A stretch of 64,000 bases of DNA from Chloroherpetonaceae bacterium (GTDB lineage Bacteria > Bacteroidota > Chlorobiia > Chlorobiales > Thermochlorobacteraceae): the NCBI GenBank assembly GCA_025056565.1, contig JANWWA010000001.1:221966-285965 (forward strand), written 5' to 3'. Below, one piece after another: positions 48,761 to 63,678 of this stretch (its first letter is position 1; each line of letters opens with the position of its first letter). The notes beneath the pieces are model-generated. The model saw only the letters and a list, made by a program, of their open reading frames with translations, was not told the DNA's origin and searched no databases. The position numbers were made by a program, and so were the translations under genes.

Positions 48761-50542
48761 TTAGTTGAAAGAACGAGTGGTTTCGTAGCGTGCCTTGCCG
48801 TCTTCTTTTGGCTTCTTTTTGTCGTGTTCGTGTTCGTCCTTGAAGTTCGGATTAAAGGTCACCAGTCCATCTTGATCCATCATCACGCGGTCGTAGTCAT
48901 AGCAACCCCAGAGTAAACGCGGGTTACCCACAAAGTTTTCCGTTGGCGGTGGTGAAGTAGTCGTCCACTCTAAACCCAAAGCATACCATGGGTTTCGTGG
49001 GGCAGGCTTGCCCTTGAAGAGCGAGTGAATGAGGTAAATCGCCATCACAATAAAGCCGAGTGCCAGAATCCAAGTGCCGAACGTAGAGAGCATATGCATG
49101 GTCTGATACTGGTCAAGGTAGGCATAGTAACGGCGTGGCATACCTTGCAGGCCCATAATGAATTGTGGGAAGAATGTTACGTTGAAGCCGATGAAAATCA
49201 GTGCGGCGGAAATCGCTGCCCAGAATTCGTCATACATTTTGCCCCACATCTTCGGCCACCAGTAGTGTAAGCCACCCAGAAATGCCATCACGGCACCGCC
49301 CATCATTGTGTAATGGAAGTGTGCAACTACAAAGTAGGTGTCGTGCAAGTGCACATCAACTGAGAGTGCGCCCAAGAAAATCCCTGTGAGACCGCCAATT
49401 GAGAAGAGAGAAAGAAACGCATGCGCATACAGCATCGGTGCATTGAACGACAGCGAACCACGATACATCGTTGCGACCCAGTTAAAAATCTTAATTCCAG
49501 ACGGGATTCCCACAAGAAATGTCAGGAAGGAAAAGAGCGTTGCGGCTAGTTCAGACTGACCGCTGGTGAACATATGGTGTCCCCATAGAAGGAAGCTCAC
49601 CATTGCGATAGCTATACTGGAAAAGGCAACGAGCTTATAGCCGAAAATTTTCTTATGCGAAAAAGTCGTAATCAGCTCTGAGATAACTGCCATTGCTGGC
49701 AGAATCATTACATACACGACAGGGTGCGAGTAAAACCAGAAGAAGTGTTGATAGAGCACAGGGTCGCCACCGAGTGCGGGATCGAAGATGCCAATACCGA
49801 AAGCGCGCTCAAGGATGAGGAGCAGCAGTGTAATACCCAAGACAGGTGTTGCCATTACCTGAATAATTGACGATGCATAGATGCCCCACACAAACAGCGG
49901 CATATTAAACCAAGTCATGCCGGGCGCTCGCATTTTATGGATTGTTACGATGAAATTGATGCCCGTAAAAATTGAGGAAAAGCCCATAATGAAGACACCC
50001 AGCGTCATTGCAATGACTGAACCTTTTGTCTCGACGCTATATGGCGTGTAGAACGTCCAGCCTGTATCAATACCGCCAGAGGCGATGGAGTAGATGCAAA
50101 ACAGCGCACCGAAGAGATAGACGTAGTAGCTTGCTAAGTTCATCCTTGGGAATGCCAAGTCTTTTGCACCTATCATCAGCGGCAGGACGAAGTTGCCAAT
50201 GACACCTGGAATTGCTGGCACAATGAAGAGAAAAACCATAATTGCGCCGTGCATCGTAAAGAGCTGGTTGTAGGTGTCAGGTCCAACCAGTCCTCGCTTC
50301 ATTACTTCGGTTTGCAGTCCTGCGCCGTGAAACCATAGCTCAAAGCGCAGCAGTAATGCATAGATGCCACCTGCAAGGAAGAACGCCATTACTGTAAAGA
50401 GATACAGTAGAGCGATGCGCTTATGGTCGAGCGTGTAAATCCACGACCAGATGCCCTTCGGCGAGTTCAGATAATTTCTGGTCGTCTCGCTCTCTTTTGT
50501 CTTGACTGCACTTATCGCACCGGTCTCTTGCAGTGCTGCCAT
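48761..50542 (-). CDS. coxA: caa3-type cytochrome c oxidase, subunit I (A2 type)
   Basis: Heme-copper oxygen-reducing subunit; 593 residues with twelve membrane helices and the six heme/copper-binding His (for example [48 protein letters not shown]). In helix VI the segment is YSHPVVY instead of the GHPEVY of type A1, so the D-channel glutamate is replaced; family knowledge assigns that pattern to type A2, as in Rhodothermus caa3. The cross-linked Tyr is kept. AAAGGAG lies 7 bases before the ATG. It is the last gene of the respiratory supercluster, followed by a hairpin. Confidence 0.96.
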
Positions 50543-50593
50543 AGTTCACTCCTTTTCTTGGTTTGTTTGAGGTTATTTCTTCTGGCGTTATTG

Positions 50594-51565
50594 TTACTTC
50601 AAGCTCTTGATATACTCAATTAGCGCCTCAATTTGCTTTTCCTTCAGCAAACCTTGATAGGTTGGCATTACAGGCTGGTAGCCTGCAACCACCTTCGCAT
50701 TCGGTTCCAAAATGGACTGGCGAATGTAGTTTTCATCAACTAAGACTTCTGAGCCATCTGCCATTTTGTGCTTCGTGCCGAAAATGCCTTTCCAAGTCGG
50801 ACCTGTATTCGCACTCCCATCAATGCTATGGCAAGTGGCGCAGGCTTTGGAGACATAGAGTTTTGCTCCAAACTCCACAGGCGACATCTTGCCTCCGCTC
50901 TCGGCTTCTTCAAGCCACTTTTTGTATTCTGCTTCAGTCTTGACATGCACTTTACCAATCATTCCAGAGTGGCTGGTGCCGCAATATTCAGCACAGAAAA
51001 TATCATATGTGCCCACCTCAGTTGGCGTAAAAGACACCGTCGTGTATCGGTTGGGCACTGCGTCCATCTTGATGCGAAATGCGGGCACATAGAAGCTGTG
51101 AATCACATCGGTTGAGGAAATGAGCGCTTTAATCGGCTTGCCAACGGGCACCACCAGTTCATTGACGCTATTATTCCCATTCGGATAGTCAAATGCCCAG
51201 AACCACTTTTTGCCTGTGATTTTGATTTCCATTGAGTTGGCTGGAATGACACGCATATCCATATAGGACGTAAAGCCCCAAAAGAAGACAACGAAGACCA
51301 GTATGGTTGGGATAATTGTCCAGATGAGTTCCAGCCGATTGTTATGCGCAATTGAGGAGGTAAAGGTCGGCTTTTCGCCTCTGCGCCGATACTTCCAGAG
51401 GTAGTAGAGCGAAACCAGAGAAACAGCAACGAAAAGAATTGCACTGGCATTTGCAATGAAGATAATTAGCCCATCGGTTTGGTGTGCGATGCTTGATGCT
51501 TCGGGTGGCACCCAGCTGCTTGCAGGTTTTGGATTCATAATTGCACTCCAGAATTGGTTGAACAA
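50594..51565 (-). CDS. coxB: caa3-type cytochrome c oxidase, subunit II with fused cytochrome c
   Basis: A 323-residue subunit that carries CuA and accepts electrons. Two N-terminal membrane helices (about residues 28-55 and 82-105), the cupredoxin domain with CAEYCGTSHSGMIGKV (CuA ligands, about residues 200-213), then a C-terminal c-type cytochrome with KACATCHSIDG (about 247) and a likely axial Met in PVMPTYQG. The fusion makes it caa3-type, so electrons come from a cytochrome c or directly from Alternative Complex III. It lies 51 bases before coxA. Confidence 0.95.
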   Translation of the reverse strand: MFNQFWSAIMNPKPASSWVPPEASSIAHQTDGLIIFIANASAILFVAVSLVSLYYLWKYRRRGEKPTFTSSIAHNNRLELIWTIIPTILVFVVFFWGFTSYMDMRVIPANSMEIKITGKKWFWAFDYPNGNNSVNELVVPVGKPIKALISSTDVIHSFYVPAFRIKMDAVPNRYTTVSFTPTEVGTYDIFCAEYCGTSHSGMIGKVHVKTEAEYKKWLEEAESGGKMSPVEFGAKLYVSKACATCHSIDGSANTGPTWKGIFGTKHKMADGSEVLVDENYIRQSILEPNAKVVAGYQPVMPTYQGLLKEKQIEALIEYIKSLK

Positions 51566-51567
51566 GC

Positions 51568-52410
51568 TTAGTTTTGCGGAATATCAACGCTCAAGTTTCC
51601 CTTTTGCTTGTGGCGTCGACTCTCACGTGCCCAGAACATTCCCAGCATCACTGTCAGAACAACGAGCGTAATGACGCCACCGATGCGCATAATGTTCATT
51701 GCCACAGGTACATAGCTACCTGCTTGCGGGTCGTAGTGAAAGCATGCGAGAATGAGCCGATCAATGGTTGTGCCCACCTTGCCTTGTGAAGCCTCAATCA
51801 GCCCAAGTTTTAAGTCAAAGTTTTTGTAGCTAATGCCATAGACATAGCGCGTGATTTTTCCTTCAGGTGAAAGCAGCATAATCACCGCAGGGTGTGCAAA
51901 CTCATCACGCTTTTTGTCATAGAAATACTTGAATCCGACAGCGTCAGCTAATGCCTTTGAATGCTCTGCTGCACCTGTAAGAAAAAACCAACCTTCCTCG
52001 ACGCCTGGCTTACCAAAGGCTTCCTTGTAGCGTGTCTTTTTTGCCGCTGCAAGCTCCCACGTCTCTCGGCTGTCGATACTGACAGTCAGAATTGTGTAAT
52101 CTTTGCCCAAGGTCAGACTGAGGGTCTTTGCAGCCTCACAGACGCCATTCAAGACCATATTGCAGAGCATTGGGCAGCGATAATATGCCAGCACCAAAAT
52201 AATTGGCTTGCCTTTGTGCAGGTAATCGCCCAGTCTTACCGTCTTGCCTGTTTCATCTTGAAAAGTCAAGGTCTCTGGAATCGTCTCGCCCAAACGCTCT
52301 ACAACATCAATGCCTTGCAACGCTCTTGGCTTTTCCTCAATGAGTTGTGCTCTTGCAATGCTCGCATAGCATAGCACAAGCAGCACGATGTAAGCTATCT
52401 GTCTTATCAT
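51568..52410 (-). CDS. SCO1/SenC family copper chaperone
   Basis: A 280-residue thioredoxin-like protein that delivers copper to the CuA site. Signal peptide (residues 1-21, ends ARAQ), copper-binding YYRCPMLCNMV (CxxxC) near residue 78, the conserved His in EFAHPAVIMLLSP near 170, and a C-terminal membrane helix (RIGGVITLVVLTVMLGMFWA), so it is held at the outer face of the inner membrane. It is separated from coxB by only 2 bases and is clearly dedicated to this oxidase. Confidence 0.93.
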   Translation of the reverse strand: MIRQIAYIVLLVLCYASIARAQLIEEKPRALQGIDVVERLGETIPETLTFQDETGKTVRLGDYLHKGKPIILVLAYYRCPMLCNMVLNGVCEAAKTLSLTLGKDYTILTVSIDSRETWELAAAKKTRYKEAFGKPGVEEGWFFLTGAAEHSKALADAVGFKYFYDKKRDEFAHPAVIMLLSPEGKITRYVYGISYKNFDLKLGLIEASQGKVGTTIDRLILACFHYDPQAGSYVPVAMNIMRIGGVITLVVLTVMLGMFWARESRRHKQKGNLSVDIPQN

Positions 52411-52543: not shown

Positions 52544-52660
52544 TTAGTCTCCCTCTTCATTTTCAGGCTTGATCAACTTTCTTGCAATTGTGATGCCCAC
52601 TAGTCCCACTCCTAATACCACAGCGGTCAGCACTATCATAAAGAATAATGTTGAGAGCAT
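52544..52660 (-). CDS. Possible 38-residue single-span membrane protein
   Basis: An ORF of 38 codons: a hydrophobic stretch of about 20 residues (FFMIVLTAVVLGVGLVGITI) followed by the charged tail ARKLIKPENEEGD. It sits between the 165-residue gene and sco on the same strand, and its composition is that of a small oxidase-associated subunit. A GTG at 52687 would add 9 residues. Unlike its neighbours it has no strong ribosome-binding site, so it could be chance. No family is recognised. Confidence 0.45.
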   Translation of the reverse strand: MLSTLFFMIVLTAVVLGVGLVGITIARKLIKPENEEGD

Positions 52661-52727
52661 TGCGCTATTTCTCAGTCTCTTCTGCACTAGCGCCCACCCA
52701 ATTGAAGCGGGACACGGAAACTTGCCA

Positions 52728-53225
52728 CTACTTTCTGCCGCCTATCTCCTTTGTCGAAAGGTCTGTTTTGGCGTCCTCTTTCTTTGGAGGAGTTGCCTCC
52801 TGCATCTCCAGTGCTGCTTTCTTTCGCTGATATGCTTCATCAGCGATAATTTTCATCGCTTCGCTAATCGGGATTTGGTAGATGCCCTTCTTTTCATCAA
52901 TCACTCTGTAGCTTTTGAGCATGCCTTCTTCTCGCTGGCGCACATCGCGCAAAAGATTGGATTCGGGCTTCAAGGCATGCTCCAGCATCTCTCGCTCTCG
53001 GCTAATTGTGAAGTATTGCGTGATAAAAAACATTACAATAGCTACCAAGATGGTGCCGATGATAAACGAGCCAATGATGCGACTGCCACTGACGTCCTGT
53101 CGCTCGTAATCAATCTCTGCATCTTTGAAGACCTCATCAGGTGAGAGGACCACAGGCTGTATCGGCTTTTCTTCCGACTTTTCCAGATCCTGTTGGACTT
53201 GCTTTTTTTCCTGCATTTCAAGCAT
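52728..53225 (-). CDS. Small membrane protein of the ACIII-caa3 cluster
   Basis: A 165-residue protein with an acidic N-terminal tail, one membrane segment (about residues 50-72, IIGSFIIGTILVAIVMFFITQYF), and a C-terminal domain with GMLKSYRVIDEKKGIYQIPISEAMKIIADE. The 'Y.viD...g...iPI..AM..ia' pattern is one I associate with small proteins next to cytochrome oxidase genes; its role is not known. AAAGGAG 7 bases before the ATG supports the start. It follows actF by 42 bases. Confidence 0.75.
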   Translation of the reverse strand: MLEMQEKKQVQQDLEKSEEKPIQPVVLSPDEVFKDAEIDYERQDVSGSRIIGSFIIGTILVAIVMFFITQYFTISREREMLEHALKPESNLLRDVRQREEGMLKSYRVIDEKKGIYQIPISEAMKIIADEAYQRKKAALEMQEATPPKKEDAKTDLSTKEIGGRK

Positions 53226-53267: not shown

Positions 53268-54464
53268 TCACTGATGAAATTCTAGCGAGAGCTTCAGGCG
53301 TGCATCGCCAATCGGCAAAAGTGGCGCTGAAGTTAGGCGTTGCCAGAAGAACCACAGGAAGATGCCACCGATGCCCACAAAGGTTGCAAGGTGTATCCAC
53401 GAAAGATGTACGCCATGCACAGCGTGCTCGCCACCGTGTGCCCCATAGTTCGGCATTATCAGCCAGAACAAGTCGACATACTGCATCAGAAGCATCCATA
53501 CTGAGATAATGCGCATTACCGTCAGGTTTCGCTTTGCTGCGCGTGGCATCAGTGTAAAGAAAGGAATTGCAAAGTGCCCTATTGCCAAGAAAATGGAAAC
53601 ATACTGCCAGCCGTGTTCCCAGCGATGCTTGTAGAAAATGGTTTCTTCCTCAATGTTGCCATACCAGATGAGCAGAAATTGCGAAAAGGCGATGTAAGTC
53701 CAGAAGACGGTAAAGCCGAACATCAATTTGCCCATATCGTGGTAGTGGTCAACTTTGATTTCATTTGCCAAGACGCCTTGTGAGCGTAGGTAGAGCGAAA
53801 AGAAGACAATGAACGCCAGTGTCGACCACCACGCTCCGGCGAAGATATAGACGCCGAAAATGGTAGAATACCAATGTGGGTCTAAAGACATCACCCAATC
53901 CCATGCTGCAAATGTGAGCGAGAGCGCAAACAGCACGATGCCGGGGGCACTAATTGCCTTGAAGGTTGGTCGGTGGCGTTCATCGTAGCGCCGGTCTTGC
54001 TCGAGCGAGGTTTTGTAGAGTGAGTATGCCAGCGCTGTCCAGATGCCAAAGTAGATTAGCGCGCGCACTAGGAAAAACCCTGTATTGAGCCATCCTGCTT
54101 TGTGCTGCAGCACCTTGTCAGCTGCCACGGCTTCGGGGTGCGACCAATGATAAAGGTCGTGAATGCCTAGCCCGACTGGAATAAAGAGCACCGCCATCAC
54201 GGGCATTGTAATCATCAAGGATTCAGAGATGCGGCGAAAGACCGTGCTCCAGTCGGCACTGACAACATGGTGCAGCATTGTAAAAAAGAGACTGCCCAGC
54301 GAAATGCCCAGCCAGAAGCAATAGGCGACAAGATAGGCATGGAAAAATTCTGTGCGGTTCATTGCGAAGCCAGCCACTGACGCCATCAGCCCCGCAATTC
54401 CCACAGCAAGGACGATTTTTCCAAAGTGATTGTCTTTGGTGATTCTCAGTTCTTGAACGCTCAT
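53268..54464 (-). CDS. actF: Alternative Complex III, subunit ActF
   Basis: A 398-residue polytopic protein with about ten membrane helices, related in layout to ActC/NrfD. Segments such as FAAWDWVMSLDPHWYSTIFGVYIFAGAWW and YIAFSQFLLIWYGNIEEETIFYKHRW are characteristic of the ActF family (quinol:cytochrome c oxidoreductase). It forms part of the membrane arm. It follows actE by 9 bases. Confidence 0.93.
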   Translation of the reverse strand: MSVQELRITKDNHFGKIVLAVGIAGLMASVAGFAMNRTEFFHAYLVAYCFWLGISLGSLFFTMLHHVVSADWSTVFRRISESLMITMPVMAVLFIPVGLGIHDLYHWSHPEAVAADKVLQHKAGWLNTGFFLVRALIYFGIWTALAYSLYKTSLEQDRRYDERHRPTFKAISAPGIVLFALSLTFAAWDWVMSLDPHWYSTIFGVYIFAGAWWSTLAFIVFFSLYLRSQGVLANEIKVDHYHDMGKLMFGFTVFWTYIAFSQFLLIWYGNIEEETIFYKHRWEHGWQYVSIFLAIGHFAIPFFTLMPRAAKRNLTVMRIISVWMLLMQYVDLFWLIMPNYGAHGGEHAVHGVHLSWIHLATFVGIGGIFLWFFWQRLTSAPLLPIGDARLKLSLEFHQ

Positions 54465-54473
54465 AGTTTCTCC

Positions 54474-55127
54474 TTACTGCTTGATAAGTTCCTTGCGAAC
54501 ATTTTCAGGCACATCGGCAATAGAGGCGTGTTGAGCGCGCTGCAAGGCTCGAATGTAAGCTACAATCGCCCAGCGGTCTTGCACAGAAATTTGATGCTTG
54601 TAGCCTGCCATATTGCGAATGCCATTTGAGGCGACGGCAAACAGATGTCCGTCTGGTGCAGCCAGCAATCGTGGCTCATGTAAGTTTGTCGCAGGCACAA
54701 GATAGCCGCCTTGCACCGCTCGCTCTACGATGATGCCTTTGCCATCCCCGACGCGACTGTGGCACGGCGCGCAATAGATGTTGTATCGCTCCTGACCACG
54801 CTGCAGAAGCTCCATTGTAACATCAATCGGGATTACCTTTACCGTGTCGCCAGTCTTGCTAATGCCCGTGTAATAGACGCTATTTTCACGCAAGCCACCG
54901 CGCGGAACTGTGCCTGCAACAGGAATACGCATTGCCAAGCCGTCCTCAAAGAATTCACTCTTGCGAAAGGGCTTCATCTTTTCTTGCGTGTCCATATTCG
55001 GATTGGGGTGAATGGGTGGATTTTCACTTGGCAAACCGCGCACGCCGCAACCTGCCAGCACCATCACAGCCGTCCATACCCCAATGATTGCAAGCCCCTG
55101 ACTTTTGCTACTTACTTTCAAATTCAT
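54474..55127 (-). CDS. actE: Alternative Complex III, mono-heme cytochrome c ActE
   Basis: A 217-residue lipoprotein: lipobox VLAGC with Cys27, then one heme motif YCAPCHSRVGDG near residue 118 and a likely axial-Met region GIRNMAGYKHQI near 174. The N-terminal DTQEKMKPFRKSEFFEDGLAMRIPVAGTV segment is typical of ActE. It is the exposed cytochrome of the complex and hands electrons to the oxidase. It overlaps actD by 4 bases. Confidence 0.93.
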   Translation of the reverse strand: MNLKVSSKSQGLAIIGVWTAVMVLAGCGVRGLPSENPPIHPNPNMDTQEKMKPFRKSEFFEDGLAMRIPVAGTVPRGGLRENSVYYTGISKTGDTVKVIPIDVTMELLQRGQERYNIYCAPCHSRVGDGKGIIVERAVQGGYLVPATNLHEPRLLAAPDGHLFAVASNGIRNMAGYKHQISVQDRWAIVAYIRALQRAQHASIADVPENVRKELIKQ

Positions 55128-55822
55128 TTTACTGCCTCCATTTTTTGTTGAGCGATGTGCTCAATTTCAATCTCTTCAATCGGGCGATGCACCACCTCAA
55201 TATTTTTGCCACCAATTTTCTCAAAGAAGGCTTTGATTTCTCGGACATTAAATTTCTTGTCCCACATAAAAATCGCAATGAAAAAGCCATCGTCCGTAGC
55301 CTTTGAGCAGAAGCGCTCAGAGTAGAACATTGGGTGGAAAAAGCGTGGCATTTTGTTGAGGTAGAACATTCCAATAATTGCGGCAAAGGCTGAAGTCAGC
55401 ACCATAAGCTCAAACATCACGGGCACAAAAGTCGGCAAGCTGAAATACGGTTTGCCTGAAAACACCAGCGGGTAGTCCACTACATTTGTCCACCATTGCA
55501 GCCAGACCGCAAAGAGAAAACCGCAGAATCCGACGCCAAAGACGATATAGCCAAGTATGGAGGGACGTAACCCCATTGCTTCATCCATTCCGTGAATGGG
55601 GAACGGCGAGTAGCATTCATATCGGTCGTAGCCTGCTTCGCGCACTTTTTTGGCGGCGCGTAGGAGTTCTGCTGGATTGTCAAATTCTGCAATGACGGCT
55701 TCCGCTTCAGCTTCAATCAGAATTTGGCGTGCTTCATCTTTTACCGCCTCAGCATTGCGTTTAAGCTCCTCCAGCGTTTGTGTGCCACCGTTTTGCAAAG
55801 GCTGATTTTGAATCTCGTTCAT
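55124..55822 (-). CDS. actD: Alternative Complex III, subunit ActD (DUF3341)
   Basis: A 232-residue protein with an acidic helical N-terminus, the DUF3341 signature AAKKVREAGYDRYECYSPFPIHGMDEAMGL (about residues 56-85), and two membrane helices (about 92-113 and 130-152). By family knowledge it is a structural subunit. Start and stop overlap both neighbours (1 base with actC, 4 with actE), indicating translational coupling. Confidence 0.93.
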   Translation of the reverse strand: MNEIQNQPLQNGGTQTLEELKRNAEAVKDEARQILIEAEAEAVIAEFDNPAELLRAAKKVREAGYDRYECYSPFPIHGMDEAMGLRPSILGYIVFGVGFCGFLFAVWLQWWTNVVDYPLVFSGKPYFSLPTFVPVMFELMVLTSAFAAIIGMFYLNKMPRFFHPMFYSERFCSKATDDGFFIAIFMWDKKFNVREIKAFFEKIGGKNIEVVHRPIEEIEIEHIAQQKMEAVK

Positions 55823-57306
55823 TAGTGTCCTCCTTTCACGCTAAGTTCAGCTTCGGCTTTTGCGCCACTCTGGTGTGAAGATGCCTCGTGATGTCCATTG
55901 TCGTGATGCCCATAGCCTTCCCAGTGCGGGTTAGCTTGGGGCAAGACGCCTTTGACTTCAAACATTGCGACCATCGGTATGAAGCGCAAAAAGAGCAGAA
56001 AGAGTGTCATAAAGACCCCCAATGATCCCACGAAGGTCATGACATCAAAAATCGTGGGCGTAAAGTATTTCCAGCTTGACGGCAGGAAGTCGGTCGAAAG
56101 CGAGGTAACGGTAATTACAAATCGCTCAAACCACATTCCCACGTTGATGAGAATGGACGCAATAAACATTACGGGGATATTCTGGCGCAATTTCTTGAAC
56201 CAGAAGACCTGTGGCACGACCACATTGCAGAAAATCATTGACCAGTATGCCCAAGCATATGGACCTGTGGCGCGCTTGATGAAAATTGACGCTTCGTATT
56301 CATTGCCGCTATACCAAGCGATGAAAAACTCGCAGCCGTAGGCATAACCGACCATCATGCCTGTCACTAGCATAATGATGTTCATCTTCTCGAGGTGCTG
56401 CATGTTGATGATGGCTTGCATTTTGGGATAGACGATGCGTGCCAGCACAGCCAGCGTCATCACCATCGCAAAACCTGAGAAGATGGCACCGGCGACGAAG
56501 TAGGGTGGGAAAATTGTGGTGTGCCACCCGGGCAAAATACTGGTGGCAAAGTCAAACGAGACAATGCTATGCACCGAAAGCACCAGTGGCGTGGACAGTC
56601 CTGCCAAAATCAGGTAGGCTTTTTCATAGTGTTTCCACTGGCGATTGCCGCCGCGCCAGCCCATTGCGAAAAATCCAAGAATGTATTTGCGTAGTCCGGG
56701 CTTTGCGCGGTCGCGTAGCGCGGCAAGGTCAGGAATTAAGCCCACATACCAGAATAGCACCGAAACGGTAAAGTAGGTGGAAACTGCAAAGACATCCCAC
56801 ATCAAGGGAGAGCGGAAGTTTGTCCACATCTGCATCTGGTTAGGCACGGGGAACAGCCAGTAATCCAGCCACTGCCGACCTGTGTGAAGCGACACAAAAC
56901 TGGCGGCGCAAATAACCGCAAAAATCGTCATGGCTTCGGAGAAGCGGTTGATAGAGGTGCGCCACTTTTGGCGAAAGAGAAAAAGGACGGCTGAAATGAG
57001 TGTGCCAGCGTGTCCAATACCAACCCACCAGACGAAGTTGGTGATGTCCCACGCCCAACCGACGGTTGTTTGATTACCCCAGATACCAATGCCTTTGAAG
57101 ACAAGGTAAGTTACCGTGCCGAGCCACATTAAGGCAGCAGCAAAGGAAATACCGAAAGCAATCCACCATGCTTTGGGCGCAGGATTCTCTGTTACTTCAC
57201 TGACATCTTGCGTAATTGTGTGAAAGGTTGGATTTCCCTCAATGAGCGGTCGGTCTACAGCTTCCAGCCGCTTTTTTTCTTCCACAGTTTCAAGTGTTGC
57301 TTGCAT
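55822..57306 (-). CDS. actC: Alternative Complex III, NrfD-like subunit ActC
   Basis: A 494-residue integral membrane protein with about ten helices of the NrfD/PsrC type that holds the quinol site. Conserved segments include [78 protein letters not shown] and a His/Asp-rich C-terminal tail ([13 protein letters not shown]) after residue 468. It is the central membrane subunit beside ActB. Confidence 0.95.
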
Positions 57307-57417: not shown

Positions 57418-57606
57418 TCAGTATTCATCTTTGGCAACTCGGGTGTTTTGCTTTGACTTGGTATTGGTTGGCGGCACACGGTCAGTAATGTTTTCTGGTC
57501 GAGGGTTATCGTGCATTCGCTTAAACTCCAACAGTGAAAAAAGAATCCCACCGATTAGCATCACAGTAATCAGTGAGCCGAATATCAGTAACATCGTGTC
57601 GCTCAT
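57418..57606 (-). CDS. 62-residue single-span membrane protein between actB and actC
   Basis: One N-terminal membrane segment (about residues 4-26, MLLIFGSLITVMLIGGILFSL) and a hydrophilic, basic tail rich in Asn, Pro, Lys. AAGGAGG lies 7 bases before the ATG, so it is very probably translated. It is inserted where the published core Act order has actC directly after actB, so it is a likely accessory subunit of the complex or of the oxidase. I do not recognise it. Confidence 0.65.
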   Translation of the reverse strand: MSDTMLLIFGSLITVMLIGGILFSLLEFKRMHDNPRPENITDRVPPTNTKSKQNTRVAKDEY

Positions 57607-57625
57607 CGCACTGCCCTCCTTCGGT

Positions 57626-57907
57626 TCAATCTTGGTTAATCGGTGTTCGAGTTACAATGCTGCGGAAGTACAGCCCCAGCGAGATACTTCCGACGACCCA
57701 AATCGCTACAATTTGCCCAGCATCTTGATTCTTCTCAATAAACCAGAGATAGTTGCCAAAGGCATAAGCCACAATGACCGCACCCAGAAAGAAGTAATCG
57801 AAGGTGCGAATGCTCTTTGGATTCATCTCTTGAAGCGCAAAGACGATGCCTATACACGCCAGCAGCGTTACGACGATACCCGCAATTAAAATCACTTGAT
57901 TATCCAT
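57626..57907 (-). CDS. 93-residue three-span membrane protein between actB and actC
   Basis: Three hydrophobic segments (about residues 5-25, 38-57 and 65-83). The end, AIWVVGSISLGLYFRSIVTRTP, resembles the end of the 59-residue protein encoded just upstream (SLWVPTNLVMGIYFRNIATTAP), so the two look like tandem relatives. The ribosome-binding site GGAG lies in the end of the preceding ORF and the gap is 3 bases. Unknown family; a small subunit or assembly factor of the quinol-oxidising or oxygen-reducing complex is the likely job. Confidence 0.68.
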   Translation of the reverse strand: MDNQVILIAGIVVTLLACIGIVFALQEMNPKSIRTFDYFFLGAVIVAYAFGNYLWFIEKNQDAGQIVAIWVVGSISLGLYFRSIVTRTPINQD

Positions 57908-57910
57908 AGC

Positions 57911-58090
57911 TTACTCCTTTGGCGCAGTGGTTGCAATGTTTCGGAAGTAAATGCCCATTACCAAGTTGGTTGGCACCCAGAGGCTTACAAAGAGTGCTTC
58001 GTTTAGCTTGCCCTGAATGAGCAGCATGTTTGCAAGGACAAACGCCACGAATGCCGAGAGCATAAAAAAGATGTCAGAACGGCGTAGCAT
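57911..58090 (-). CDS. 59-residue two-span membrane protein after actB
   Basis: MLRRSDIFFMLSAFVAF at the start, a second hydrophobic segment LFVSLWVPTNLVMGIYF, and the tail NIATTAPKE. The ATG follows the actB stop by 11 bases and AAAGGAG stands 6 bases ahead of it, so translation is well supported. The C-terminal half aligns by eye with the 93-residue product downstream (WV......G.YFR.I.T..P). I know no family for it. Confidence 0.68.
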   Translation of the reverse strand: MLRRSDIFFMLSAFVAFVLANMLLIQGKLNEALFVSLWVPTNLVMGIYFRNIATTAPKE

Positions 58091-58101: not shown

Positions 58102-61100
58102 TTATGCTTTTTGTTGTTCAAGTTCAGGGTTTGGATTGCGCAACTTTGCTAAGTAAGTGGTTCTCGGCTTGACATTGAGTTCACCCAAGAGCGCATAGTT
58201 GCGGTTTTGCGCTTTGATTTGCGACACCTTGCTATTAGGGTCTCTGATGTCACCAAACACAATTGCTTGCGTCGGGCAAACTTGCTGGCAAGCAGTCATA
58301 ATCTCGCCATCTACCACATCTCGGCCTTCGTTCTTTGCCAGAATTTTCGTGGTCTGAATGCGATGCACGCAGTAGGTGCACTTTTCCATCACGCCGCGTG
58401 AGCGCACGGTTACTTCAGGATTCATCGCCATCTTGGTGATTTCAGGAATCTCCCGATTCCAGACCACATTGTCGTTCTGGTAGTTGAAGTAATTGAAGCG
58501 GCGCACTTTGTAGGGGCAGTTATTGGCACAGTAGCGCGTGCCAATGCAGCGGTTGTAGACCATTGTGTTGAGACCTTCTTGGTCGTGTACCGTTGCGACC
58601 ACAGGGCAAACTTGCTCACACGGTGCATTTTCACAATGCTGGCAAGCAACAGGTTGATAGACCATTTCAGGCATATCGCCTTCACCTACAAAGTATCGGT
58701 CAATGCGAATCCAGTGCATATGCCGACCTTTTGCAGTCTGCTCTTTGCCCACGACAGGCACATTGTTTTCGCTCTGGCACGCCACCACGCATGCATTGCA
58801 CCCAATGCACGCATTTAAGTCAATGGTCATTCCCCATTGATGTCCTTGGTCATACTTGTAAGGCGAGTCGTAGAGCTTGGACGGTGGATACTTTGTGAGG
58901 TGCGATTCCACAAAGTCTGGCTTTTCTCGGTATTCTGCCAGTGTGCCTTCAATGACGATAGCGCGTCCATCCATATAGCCATAGTATTGCGTTGAGGCCA
59001 CTAGCATTGTCTTGCCAGTCTTTATGACTTCTACCCCAGAGCAAACGTCCATGGCATCGCTGGTGCGAATCGCATAGGTGTTTGCGCCCACGCTATTGCC
59101 CACACGTCCCACACGTGTTCGACCGTAACCCAGTGCAACAGTGATGGAACCATCGGCATGTCCGGGCACAACCCAAACAGGCAGTTCTACCTGCCTATTG
59201 CCCAATCGCAGGGCAATCACTTCACGATGCGTTTCACTCAAGGCAAACTTGTGCTTCAGCCCAAGCTGCTTGGCGGTGCCCTGACTCATTAGTGCTGCAT
59301 TATCCCAGCAGATTTTGGTAATAGCTTCAGGCGTCTCTTGCAGCCAAGCATTGTTGGCGTATCGCCCGTCGAAGGTTGCCGTAGAGGGCTGGAAGCACAG
59401 TTCCAGCGTGTTCTCTCGGGCTGCCACTTCAAATGGCTTTTGCGCAAAGAGCTGCGCAAGGCTTTGAGCTTTGAGCGAAGGCACCAGCTTCTGTGAGGCG
59501 GAGTTTTCAATCACGCCGTCGTGTAGGCTTTTGCGCCAGAAATCCTCGAAGGCGATGCCTGAGAGACCGGTTTGCTGCTTCCAAGTCTCTTGCACCAGTG
59601 CATAGCCTTTGCCATCAATGCCTGTGGTTAGCAGGTTTAATACCTCTATCACAGAGCGTGTGTCAAAGAGCGGTGCAATGAGCGGCTGAATCAGACTGGC
59701 GGTGCCGTCTGCAGCGCGCGCATCGCCCCATGACTCCAAGAAGTGCGACTTCGGCAAATGCCAAGTCGACAGTGCCGATGTTTCATCGTCGTGATAGCTC
59801 AGGTGAATGGAGGTTTTCACTTTTTTCAAGGCACTGGCAAAATCCAAGTCTGCTGGTGCATTATAGACAGGGTTGCCACCCAGCATCACCAGCGTCTCAA
59901 TTTTGCCCTCGTGCATCGCTTTTACCAGCTCTACCAGTTCGCTTCGGCTCGGCAGCGCTGCATCTTTGAACGGCACGAAAGAAAGCGTATTGCCCAGATT
60001 TCCCAGTGCGGCGTTGATAGCAATCGCTAAGGCGTGCACGGCTGCAGGTTGCTCTCGTCCTGCCACAACCAGCGATTCGCCCTTGTGCTGAATGAGGTCT
60101 CTGGCAAGTGCTTCAATCCACTTTTTGTCGAAGTCTTCACTTGGCGCTTGCAGGGTTTCTGTGCCTGGAATTGCCACTCCTTGTCGTTGCAATTCTTCAG
60201 CTAAGGCTGCAGCAAATGCGCCGATTTTTCGGGCTTGCAGTCGCAAGCGATGGTCTGCCATCGCCCCCGTTACGCTGTATGCCGCCTCCACCACATAGAG
60301 CCGATTCATTGAGTCTTTTTCGGACGCTACACGTCGCCCCTCTGCAAACGCTCGGGCGTTTGCTACGCTTTCGCTTTCTTTTAGGAGAAAATCGGCATTG
60401 AGCGACAAGATGACCTTTGCTGCGCGAAAGTCGTAGAGCGGACGCAATACTTCGCCAGTGGCAAGGCGCACGCCCTCATAGATATTTTCATCGCTTACTG
60501 GTTCATAAGCGACGACCTTCGCTTCGGGGAAGGTTTTCAGACACTCATTCATTAGGCGCGCCAGCGAAGGCGACGCAAACGATTCAGTGAGAATTGCTAA
60601 GCCTCTACCATTCTGCGATTTTTGGCGCAAGAGTTCATTTCGCCAAAATTCTGTAAAGGCTTGCCACGACGATTTTTCTCCCAGATGCTTTACCACTTGC
60701 GAGCGGTCAGGGTCATAGAGATTCAGGATTTCCGCTTGTGCAAAAGCATTCGTTGCGCCTAAGCTCGAGGGGTGCCTTTCATTGCCTTCAATTTTGTTCG
60801 GTCTGCCTTCGTGGCTACGCACCAATATGCCCAATGCTGAAAGACCAAATGGCATCGTCGTGGCGTAATACTGCGGAATGCCGGGCGTGATGTCCTCAGG
60901 CGCTTTGACATAGGGGACAATTTTCTCTACAGGGCGACGGCAGCTAGCCAGCCCAGCTAATAGGAACGATGCGCCCATAATCGTTAAGAATTTGCGCCGT
61001 GAAATGGGGTCGCTCATCTCAATAGCGCCTTCGGGGAACTCTCGCTCAACCCACTCTTGAAATTCAGGCGTGTTGACTTCTTCCTCTAAACTGCGCCAAT

Positions 61101-61152
61101 ACCTCTTGCCTGTAAGGGGTTGGTCAATTTTCGGTCGCGGTGTGCGTTTCAT
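58102..61152 (-). CDS. actB: Alternative Complex III, molybdopterin-oxidoreductase-like/iron-sulfur subunit ActB
   Basis: A 1016-residue periplasm-facing subunit: a ~50-residue leader with the family segment YWRSLEEEVNTPEFQEW, a twin-arginine signal SRRKFLTIMG with lipobox LASC (Cys71), a catalytic-domain-like half without cofactor motif (about 90-740), then an iron-sulfur half with four cysteine groups (ACIGCNACVVACQ, ACQHCENAPCEQVCP, CIGTRYCANNCPYK, CTYCVHRI...ACQQVCP; about residues 790-960), sites for [4Fe-4S]/[3Fe-4S] clusters. By family knowledge it does not bind molybdopterin and moves electrons from the quinol site to the hemes. It follows actA by 19 bases. Confidence 0.95.
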   Translation of the reverse strand: MKRTPRPKIDQPLTGKRYWRSLEEEVNTPEFQEWVEREFPEGAIEMSDPISRRKFLTIMGASFLLAGLASCRRPVEKIVPYVKAPEDITPGIPQYYATTMPFGLSALGILVRSHEGRPNKIEGNERHPSSLGATNAFAQAEILNLYDPDRSQVVKHLGEKSSWQAFTEFWRNELLRQKSQNGRGLAILTESFASPSLARLMNECLKTFPEAKVVAYEPVSDENIYEGVRLATGEVLRPLYDFRAAKVILSLNADFLLKESESVANARAFAEGRRVASEKDSMNRLYVVEAAYSVTGAMADHRLRLQARKIGAFAAALAEELQRQGVAIPGTETLQAPSEDFDKKWIEALARDLIQHKGESLVVAGREQPAAVHALAIAINAALGNLGNTLSFVPFKDAALPSRSELVELVKAMHEGKIETLVMLGGNPVYNAPADLDFASALKKVKTSIHLSYHDDETSALSTWHLPKSHFLESWGDARAADGTASLIQPLIAPLFDTRSVIEVLNLLTTGIDGKGYALVQETWKQQTGLSGIAFEDFWRKSLHDGVIENSASQKLVPSLKAQSLAQLFAQKPFEVAARENTLELCFQPSTATFDGRYANNAWLQETPEAITKICWDNAALMSQGTAKQLGLKHKFALSETHREVIALRLGNRQVELPVWVVPGHADGSITVALGYGRTRVGRVGNSVGANTYAIRTSDAMDVCSGVEVIKTGKTMLVASTQYYGYMDGRAIVIEGTLAEYREKPDFVESHLTKYPPSKLYDSPYKYDQGHQWGMTIDLNACIGCNACVVACQSENNVPVVGKEQTAKGRHMHWIRIDRYFVGEGDMPEMVYQPVACQHCENAPCEQVCPVVATVHDQEGLNTMVYNRCIGTRYCANNCPYKVRRFNYFNYQNDNVVWNREIPEITKMAMNPEVTVRSRGVMEKCTYCVHRIQTTKILAKNEGRDVVDGEIMTACQQVCPTQAIVFGDIRDPNSKVSQIKAQNRNYALLGELNVKPRTTYLAKLRNPNPELEQQKA

Positions 61153-61171: not shown

Positions 61172-61828
61172 TTATCGGTGGCAAGCCGAGCATTCCGTCG
61201 GCGGATTGAGTTTCTTTTTGGCTTTGATTTCTGCCGCTAATTCGGCTTGGTTGGCAGGCACGACCCAGTTCATATTGGTCACTTCGCTAACGGGTCGCAG
61301 GTGCGGGTCTGGATTGCGATGACAATCCAAACACCAACCCATGGAGAGCGGCTCAACCTGCATCACGCCTCGCTCGTCCATTTGCGCTACATTGCCATGG
61401 CAGCTCTGGCAGCCTACGCCCGCATTGACATGAACACTATGATTGAAGTAGGCGTAGTCGGGCACCTTATGCACTTTAATCCACTCAATGGGTTTGCCCG
61501 TCGTCCAGCTTTCTCGAACCAGTAGCAGCTTTTCGCTTTTAGGCAAGACATGCTTTTCGTGGCAATTCATACAGGTTTGCGTAGGTGGCACGCTGGCATT
61601 AGCCGCTTTTTCTACAGTTGTGTGGCAGTAGCGGCAATCCAGCCCTAAGTCGCCTGCATGCAACTTGTGGCTGTATGGGACAGGCTGCTTGGGTCTGTAG
61701 CCCACATCGAGCGCTTTGGGGGACCAGTAATACCAAATCAGCAACACTACCAGCGCTAGCCCTCCAACAAAACTAATCGCAAAGACTGTTGGAAATTTGT
61801 TTGTCCATCTTGGGAATAGCTGTGCCAT
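61172..61828 (-). CDS. actA: Alternative Complex III, pentaheme cytochrome c ActA
   Basis: A 218-residue membrane-anchored cytochrome: one membrane helix (about residues 13-34), then five CxxCH heme motifs (CRYCH, CMNCH, CQSCH, CLDCH, CSACH) spread from about residue 60 to the C-terminus, the expected count for ActA. It accepts electrons from ActB and passes them to ActE. It lies between ctaB and actB. Confidence 0.95.
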   Translation of the reverse strand: MAQLFPRWTNKFPTVFAISFVGGLALVVLLIWYYWSPKALDVGYRPKQPVPYSHKLHAGDLGLDCRYCHTTVEKAANASVPPTQTCMNCHEKHVLPKSEKLLLVRESWTTGKPIEWIKVHKVPDYAYFNHSVHVNAGVGCQSCHGNVAQMDERGVMQVEPLSMGWCLDCHRNPDPHLRPVSEVTNMNWVVPANQAELAAEIKAKKKLNPPTECSACHR

Positions 61829-61852: not shown

Positions 61853-62776
61853 TTATGCAAAAACTCGTTGCACCACGCTCTCTATCACCAGCGCAGTAAA
61901 GAGTCCGAAGAGATAAAGAATCGAGTAGCTAAATAGCGCACGCATCTTTTCTCGCCCCCGATTTTTCTGTGCATCAAAGGTTTTCTTGATATACAGTCCG
62001 CCTAAGACCGACGCCACAATCCAATAGACATAGCCGCCAATGAGCACGGCAAGCCCAAGCGAGACTGCAACGGTCATAGTGGTATAGATGACCATTTGCC
62101 GCAGTGTCACCTCATCACCTTTTGCGATAGGCATCATTGGATAGTTCACTTTTTGGTAGTCTTCCTTGCATAGCATTGCCAGTGCCCAGAAGTGTGGTGG
62201 TGTCCAGAAAAAGACAAGGAGGAAGAGCAGATAGGCTTCCAGTGCTACATTGCCTGTTACGGCGGCCCAAACGCCAATCGGTGCCATCGCGCCTGCCGCA
62301 CCGCCGATGACGATATTCTGTGGCGTAGTGGGCTTGAGCCAAAGCGTGTAGAAAAAGCCGTAGAACAGAATCGTTGCAAGCGTAATAGTGGCGCTCAGCC
62401 AATTAAATGCAGCGGCAAAAATCCCAACCCCTATTGCTGCAATTGCAACACTAAACCCTAAGGCTTGATTGGGCGTCAGTTTGCCCTGCGGGAGTGGTCG
62501 ACGCAACCGAGTGCGCGCCATTTGGGCATCGATCTCACGCTCAAAGTATTGATTGAGCGCATTTGCTGCACCGCCTGTCAGATAGACTGCTAAGAGAATC
62601 AATCCGAAGCGAAGCGGGTCTGTGAGCAGACTGCCTTCTAAGCACAATGCCACCGCCGCTGAAAACACGACCAGCAGCATAATCGTGGGTTTGGTCAGCA
62701 GCAAGAGGTTCTTGACCACTTCTGCAACCGTATGCTTTCCAGCGTGCTCACTGGATATTGCTTGCTTCACTTCCAT
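61853..62776 (-). CDS. ctaB: Protoheme IX farnesyltransferase (heme O synthase)
   Basis: Attaches a farnesyl group to heme B to make heme O, the precursor of the heme A of the oxidase. 307 residues with nine membrane segments; the prenyl-binding NQYFEREIDAQMARTRLRRPLPQG is at residues about 78-101, with the FWTPPHFWALAMLCKEDYQKVNYPM segment typical of CtaB in the middle. It is the first gene of the respiratory run; ctaA (heme O to heme A) is not in the window. A 6-bp inverted repeat lies 40 bases before the ATG. Confidence 0.95.
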   Translation of the reverse strand: MEVKQAISSEHAGKHTVAEVVKNLLLLTKPTIMLLVVFSAAVALCLEGSLLTDPLRFGLILLAVYLTGGAANALNQYFEREIDAQMARTRLRRPLPQGKLTPNQALGFSVAIAAIGVGIFAAAFNWLSATITLATILFYGFFYTLWLKPTTPQNIVIGGAAGAMAPIGVWAAVTGNVALEAYLLFLLVFFWTPPHFWALAMLCKEDYQKVNYPMMPIAKGDEVTLRQMVIYTTMTVAVSLGLAVLIGGYVYWIVASVLGGLYIKKTFDAQKNRGREKMRALFSYSILYLFGLFTALVIESVVQRVFA

Positions 62777-63270: not shown

Positions 63271-63678
63271 CTATTCTTCCTCGTCGTTCCAATTGTCCAA
63301 GCGCAGGCGCTCACGATGTTTGCGCAGTTCCGCACGGCGTAGCCTTGCGCGCGTCCAGTTTTGCGTGCGCACGAAGCGATAAATGCCGTAGAGCACCAGC
63401 ACTGCAGAAAGCGTCACGCCGTATTGCTCAGTGATAGGATTGCGTCCCAGCTGAAAATACACTCCTACAGAAAGCGTAAAGAACAGCAAGGAAAACCCAT
63501 AGCCCGTAATTTCTGTGAAAGTCAGTCCTCCAAGCAGCGAGCGATTCTGGTTGCGTGCTCGTAGTTTCTCACCGATGCTACCTTTCTGTGGCAGAATGAT
63601 TTTTTCTTCGTCTTGCTCAGGCGCTCCGTCCTCGTGAGCACTGCCATTTTGCCAAAGGTCGTCCTTTTGCCAGCTCAT
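63271..63678 (-). CDS. Hypothetical two-span membrane protein
   Basis: A 135-residue protein: an acidic, hydrophilic N-terminal 40 residues, then two hydrophobic segments (about residues 55-75, ITGYGFSLLFFTLSVGVYFQL, and 82-100), and a very basic Arg-rich tail (TRARLRRAELRKHRERLRLDNWN). No family is recognised. It is divergent from gcvT. Confidence 0.6.
   Translation of the reverse strand: MSWQKDDLWQNGSAHEDGAPEQDEEKIILPQKGSIGEKLRARNQNRSLLGGLTFTEITGYGFSLLFFTLSVGVYFQLGRNPITEQYGVTLSAVLVLYGIYRFVRTQNWTRARLRRAELRKHRERLRLDNWNDEEE

Follow-up and report, generated by a model that had tools for sequence, protein, structure and literature searches.

CcoQ, CcoS and CydX are tiny one-helix membrane proteins that serve as accessory subunits of oxidases and are encoded in respiratory operons. 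The Alternative Complex III (ACIII) of R. marinus comprises a seventh subunit, ActG, and an eighth, ActH, as well as unassigned density (PMC5928083). As that complex has proteins beyond ActA–F, ACIII accessories of the kind considered below, S59 and S62, are not implausible (PMC5928083). The stretch of DNA analysed here (64,000 nt, referred to as the window; its genome is G000) carries three small genes, S59, S93 and S62, between actB and actC of an ACIII–caa3 operon. By genome labels, G000 falls in the genus of Candidatus Thermochlorobacter together with G001.

Three small genes within the act operon

On the minus strand of the window, the order of genes was ctaB, actA, actB, S59, S93, S62, actC, actD, actE, actF, a gene for a 165-aa protein, a 47-aa ORF, SCO, coxB and coxA. 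The features are as follows:

61853-62776, minus strand: ctaB, an operon member by the ORF list and synteny
61172-61828, minus strand: actA, multiheme cytochrome c (QrcA-like match, E 9e-26; name from operon position)
58102-61152, minus strand: actB, flanking upstream (Fe-S and molybdopterin-type domains, QrcB/QrcC-like matches)
57911-58090, minus strand: S59, 59-aa two-helix membrane microprotein (ORF, AGGAG upstream, dN/dS, AlphaFold2 hairpin, wide-family homologs)
57626-57907, minus strand: S93, 93-aa three-helix protein (residues 1-29 S62-like, 36-90 S59-like)
57418-57606, minus strand: S62, 62-aa single-helix protein with a hydrophilic C-terminal tail, the S62-type partner gene
55822-57306, minus strand: actC, NrfD family, flanking downstream (PF03916, E 7.8e-24)
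53268-55822, minus strand: actD, actE and actF (ORFs; order kept in relatives, names from position)
52544-53225, minus strand: 165-aa one-helix protein at the actG position and 47-aa one-helix ORF
48761-52410, minus strand: SCO-like gene, coxB and coxA of a caa3-type oxidase (ORFs named by eye; synteny of relatives)

The name of actE was backed by cytochrome c matches, and among the C subunits of solved ACIII structures ActC matched best that of R. marinus (6f0k_C, E 9e-212, phmmer). In the coxA region, a PF00115 match was located at G000:C1:271032-272384. A family search with the 165-aa protein and the 47-aa ORF gave nothing above the cut-off; by its position 3' of actF, the 165-aa gene is a candidate for actG. 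The 47-aa ORF (52544-52687), which separates this gene from SCO, was kept within the genus and was tblastn-negative in other genera. The window also encodes a 135-aa membrane protein without a family match (x135, 63271-63678), whose homologs occurred in 12 of the 15 Chlorobiales genomes tested.

The initial annotation had described ORFs of 59, 93 and 62 codons with strong ribosome-binding sites and tight spacing, and the coordinates, motifs and gaps all agreed with this description. Stretches of 11 nt, 3 nt, 19 nt and 111 nt separate actB from S59, S59 from S93, S93 from S62 and S62 from actC, respectively, and the motifs upstream of S59, S93 and S62 (aaAGGAGagaagtATG, caaAGGAGtaagctATG and gAAGGAGGgcagtgcgATG, in that order) are of the good AGGAG type.

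Conservation and selection

A comparison of the actB–actC gap in other operons had been proposed as a check, with the lack of the ORFs, or of protein similarity, in close relatives named as evidence against the genes. The comparison revealed the triplet in the gap of six of the seven family members in which the gap could be read (G000, G001, G002, G004, G005 and G006); the gap was empty in the seventh, G007, which keeps ACIII. G003, both contigs of which end at the actB–actC junction, and G008, which gave no ActC match, were not counted. The frames of S59, ActB and ActC were broken in G002, as a draft MAG may show. At 40 loci of other Bacteroidota the gap did not exceed 147 nt and contained a comparable gene in none (0/40), which bears out the claim that the actABCDEF order is interrupted here. 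In the act operon of G010, a member of another family, the actB–actC gap was occupied by an unduplicated S59–S62 pair without S93.

Within the genus, dN/dS values amounted to 0.07–0.08 for S59 and 0.02–0.04 for S93, and the changes in both fell mostly at third codon positions, as in ActA and ActD. By this measure, purifying selection on S59 and S93 is strong. S62, found in G001, G002, G004, G005, G006 and G010, evolves faster, with 61–63% identity within the genus, and is still kept in another family (E 4e-21). Judged from sequence comparison, the S59, S93 and S62 ORFs are real genes.

Predicted structure and database searches

S59 was modelled by AlphaFold2 as a two-helix hairpin (pLDDT 84) and S93 as three helices (pLDDT 80), and hydropathy indicated one TM helix in S62, in line with the view that all three are membrane proteins. 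Their proposed status as undescribed proteins was likewise upheld. In Pfam and NCBIfam, S59, S93, S62 and the wide-family members described below all remained under the curated cut-offs, with sub-threshold matches only, and profile searches of the PDB (profiles A8 and A3), covering chains with assigned residues, gave no credible match. Foldseek with the S93 model returned nothing at E ≤ 0.001, and no homolog of S59, S93 or S62 was found in any of the four sequence sets of solved ACIII (6F0K, 6BTM, 6LOD and 8K9E).

S59-type and S62-type genes as a widespread pair

When about 85,000 species genomes were scanned, at least 277 places encoding S59-type proteins were detected. The 80 loci kept of these, with taxa assigned by record title, represented Bacteroidota, Acidobacteriota, Planctomycetota, Gemmatimonadota, Trueperaceae, Bdellovibrionales and others, some of the phylum labels being possibly mis-binned because most of the kept genomes are MAGs; strains of Flavobacterium, Rhodohalobacter and Flavipsychrobacter were included. 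An ORF of 28–90 aa with a predicted TM helix began −7 to +3 nt from the S59 stop codon at each of the 63 wide-family loci (63/63), which are not 63 independent observations because close relatives are among them. In the control, a comparable small TM ORF was found at 4 of the 607 stops of ORFs of at least 200 aa in the same loci. The first length limit for the partner, 33 aa, gave 40/63 and was lowered once the remaining loci showed ORFs of 30–32 aa with the same motif. Forty aligned partners matched the S62 profile (hhalign probability 97, E 1.3e-10), and a phylum-wide S62 profile search showed that the S59-type and S62-type genes adjoin in genomes of the Bacteroidota family f18. By these homologies, S59 is a member of a large unnamed family of two-helix microproteins with a one-helix S62-type partner, the two genes being adjacent and often overlapping.

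Searched at E 1e-8, the flanks of loci outside Chlorobiales were free of ACIII and cox genes, and a comparison of neighbours there revealed none in common, the cassette usually standing alone. A membrane protein of about 300 aa, without a family match, was considered as a further partner and rejected as too rare: it adjoined the cassette in five loci (L114, L131, L139, L140 and L151) and lay about 2 kb upstream in a sixth (L192 5832-6749). In two f18 genomes, a gene judged rhodopsin-like by eye adjoins the S59–S62 cassette (L192 7873-8667 and L194 8275-8985).

Searching with a profile built from S59 and the C-terminal part of S93 added copies from G009 and from another contig of G010; it also picked up a weaker paralog across Chlorobiales. 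Nearly all of the Chlorobiales genomes that were searched had this S59 paralog, which in G000 measures 77 aa and has no coupled small partner (L069 6958-7191, G000:C3).

Probable duplication and fusion

The initial annotation had attributed S59 and S93 to a tandem duplication. Their homology was confirmed, as S59 and the C-terminal part of S93 gave a Smith–Waterman score of 88, against a maximum of 54 in 5000 segment shuffles, and an hhalign probability of 98.5; the duplicated unit, however, appears to be two genes including S62, with S93 as an S62–S59 fusion. Residues 1–29 of S93 matched S62 (hhalign probability 96, E 4.7e-9, 0/200 shuffles), and the N-terminal part of S93 was independently recovered by the S62 profile from three whole genomes (E 1.6e-4 to 1.5e-3). 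An array S59a–S62a–S59b–S62b in which S62a and S59b were fused would give S59, S93 and S62, hence the observed gene order. In a tree based on a short alignment (60 columns), all S93 sequences clustered with S59 of family f1, G009 and G010:C60 (96/93), and the act-operon S59 of G010 clustered with the wide family (96/93).

It is unlikely that S93 is no fusion but an S59-type gene with an unrelated N-terminal helix, which would resemble S62 only as one TM helix resembles another. Such a reading draws on the shortness of the match (29 columns) and on the detection of the S93 N-terminus by the S62 profile in genomes of genus g1 only; it has to contend with an hhalign score of 36.4, where 200 column shuffles preserving the hydrophobic composition reached 24.3 at most, and with a gene order that agrees with the fusion prediction. 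The locus very probably represents a tandem-duplicated two-gene cassette with the middle units fused as S93, presumably by duplication and then fusion, and S59 reads as the first S59-type unit of this cassette.

Relation to ACIII and the caa3 oxidase

Within Chlorobiales, S62 was found only alongside ACIII. The act operon encoded the small genes in 6/7 readable family members and, as S59–S62, in G010, and did not do so in G007 or at the 40 other Bacteroidota loci. The triplet, coxA, SCO, ctaB and ctaA were all absent from G007, in which ACIII was kept and a different oxidase, of the cbb3 type (typed by eye), was present, a correlation that comes from a single genome, 84% complete. A short CoxB-like gene follows the actG-position gene in G007 (L057, G007:C48, 6095-6655), with no coxA beside it and with a CuA ligand pattern that looks incomplete by eye.

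A subunit of ACIII would be expected to be absent where ACIII is absent, and G009 departed from this rule. This Chloroherpeton-type genome has an S59–S93 pair, yet ActC had no match in it, ActB domains matched only remotely, and a COX1 search gave no match, indicating no heme-copper oxidase. The pair is flanked by an adjoining x135 homolog on one side and by a coiled-coil gene on the other, and a CtaA-type gene is located nearby (L067, G009:C1, 9560-10036 and 7459-8409). The idea that the locus is a remnant of a lost ACIII–caa3 cluster was weakened by G012, which has the order x135, coiled-coil gene and CtaA without the pair. In G010, a second S59–S93 pair opens another contig, the visible 12 kb of which contained no ACIII gene.

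A link to phototrophy was considered and found non-discriminating, PscA-type genes being present in 12 of 13 Chlorobiales genomes with or without the triplet. The window genome also has a PscA-type gene.

The three products had been put forward as candidate subunits or assembly factors of ACIII or of an ACIII–caa3 supercomplex. Their placement in the ACIII–caa3 operon and strong conservation in the family speak for this, but the protein family is not ACIII-specific, as it occurs apart from ACIII genes in many phyla, and in G009 without ACIII; therefore, the status of subunit or assembly factor is one possibility among others.

Discussion

The results suggest a scheme that starts from the widespread cassette of a two-helix S59-type and a one-helix S62-type gene. 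Tandem duplication of the cassette, followed by fusion of the middle S62 and S59 units into S93 (S59a – S62a::S59b – S62b), would have produced the present set, which in the Thermochlorobacter family would have been recruited into the ACIII–caa3 operon. The S59, S93 and S62 products may come together as a small assembly that is embedded in the membrane and produced along with ACIII and caa3, and this assembly may help to assemble or stabilise the ACIII–caa3 respiratory unit. We favour, with a probability of roughly 0.45, the reading that the duplicated and fused cassette was recruited to this operon and that its products aid the assembly or stability of that unit.

Nearly as likely, the products have some general function in the membrane, independent of ACIII and caa3, and the same duplicated and fused genes would owe their place in the operon only to co-expression with respiration. 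The cassette is widespread and solitary in many phyla, a pair exists in G009 without ACIII or COX1, and the second G010 pair has no ACIII gene in its visible 12 kb, all of which agree with a general role. The retention of the actB–actC position across genera and, as S59–S62, in a second family, as well as the joint absence of the triplet and caa3 from G007, fit it poorly. The same absence in G007, the operon position and a selection comparable to that on the Act subunits would also suit stoichiometric, family-specific supernumerary subunits of ACIII or of an ACIII–caa3 supercomplex, and R. marinus ACIII demonstrates that the complex can bear extra parts (PMC5928083). Such a role is nevertheless quite improbable, in view of the G009 pair without ACIII, the solved ACIII structures without a homolog and the ACIII of G007 without the triplet. 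Our working view, the most likely one, is that a generic membrane microprotein pair was recruited as an accessory of the ACIII–caa3 unit. On a broader scale, it is possible, and we put it forward tentatively, that a two-protein membrane microprotein system, absent from the family databases, performs a single conserved biochemical function across many phyla and, in Thermochlorobacteraceae, underwent duplication and fusion and became linked to the ACIII–caa3 respiratory chain.

The conserved gene pair, in which some partners have about 30 codons, is easily overlooked, and the libraries searched contain no family entry for it; the remark that the 59-codon gene could be missed by gene finders plausibly holds even more for the 30-aa partners elsewhere. 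Naming the cassette opens tests in cultured hosts, e.g., Flavobacterium and Rhodohalobacter. The Chlorobiales case adds a functional hint through the respiratory operon, and it is a clear case from nature of microprotein genes being duplicated and fused.

Among known systems, CcoQ, CcoS and CydX resemble S59, S93 and S62 in size and type of operon, and no Pfam or NCBIfam match links the three to those families. The core proteins ActA–F (R. marinus 6F0K, F. johnsoniae 6BTM, R. castenholzii 6LOD and 8K9E) share with them the operon and the membrane location; unlike ActA–F, the small proteins have no homolog among PDB chains. ActH of R. marinus differs from them in being a periplasmic three-helix bundle (PMC5928083). 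As extra, non-core ACIII proteins, ActG and ActH nonetheless offer a parallel, and ActG, predicted to have one TM helix, is alike by description (PMC5928083).
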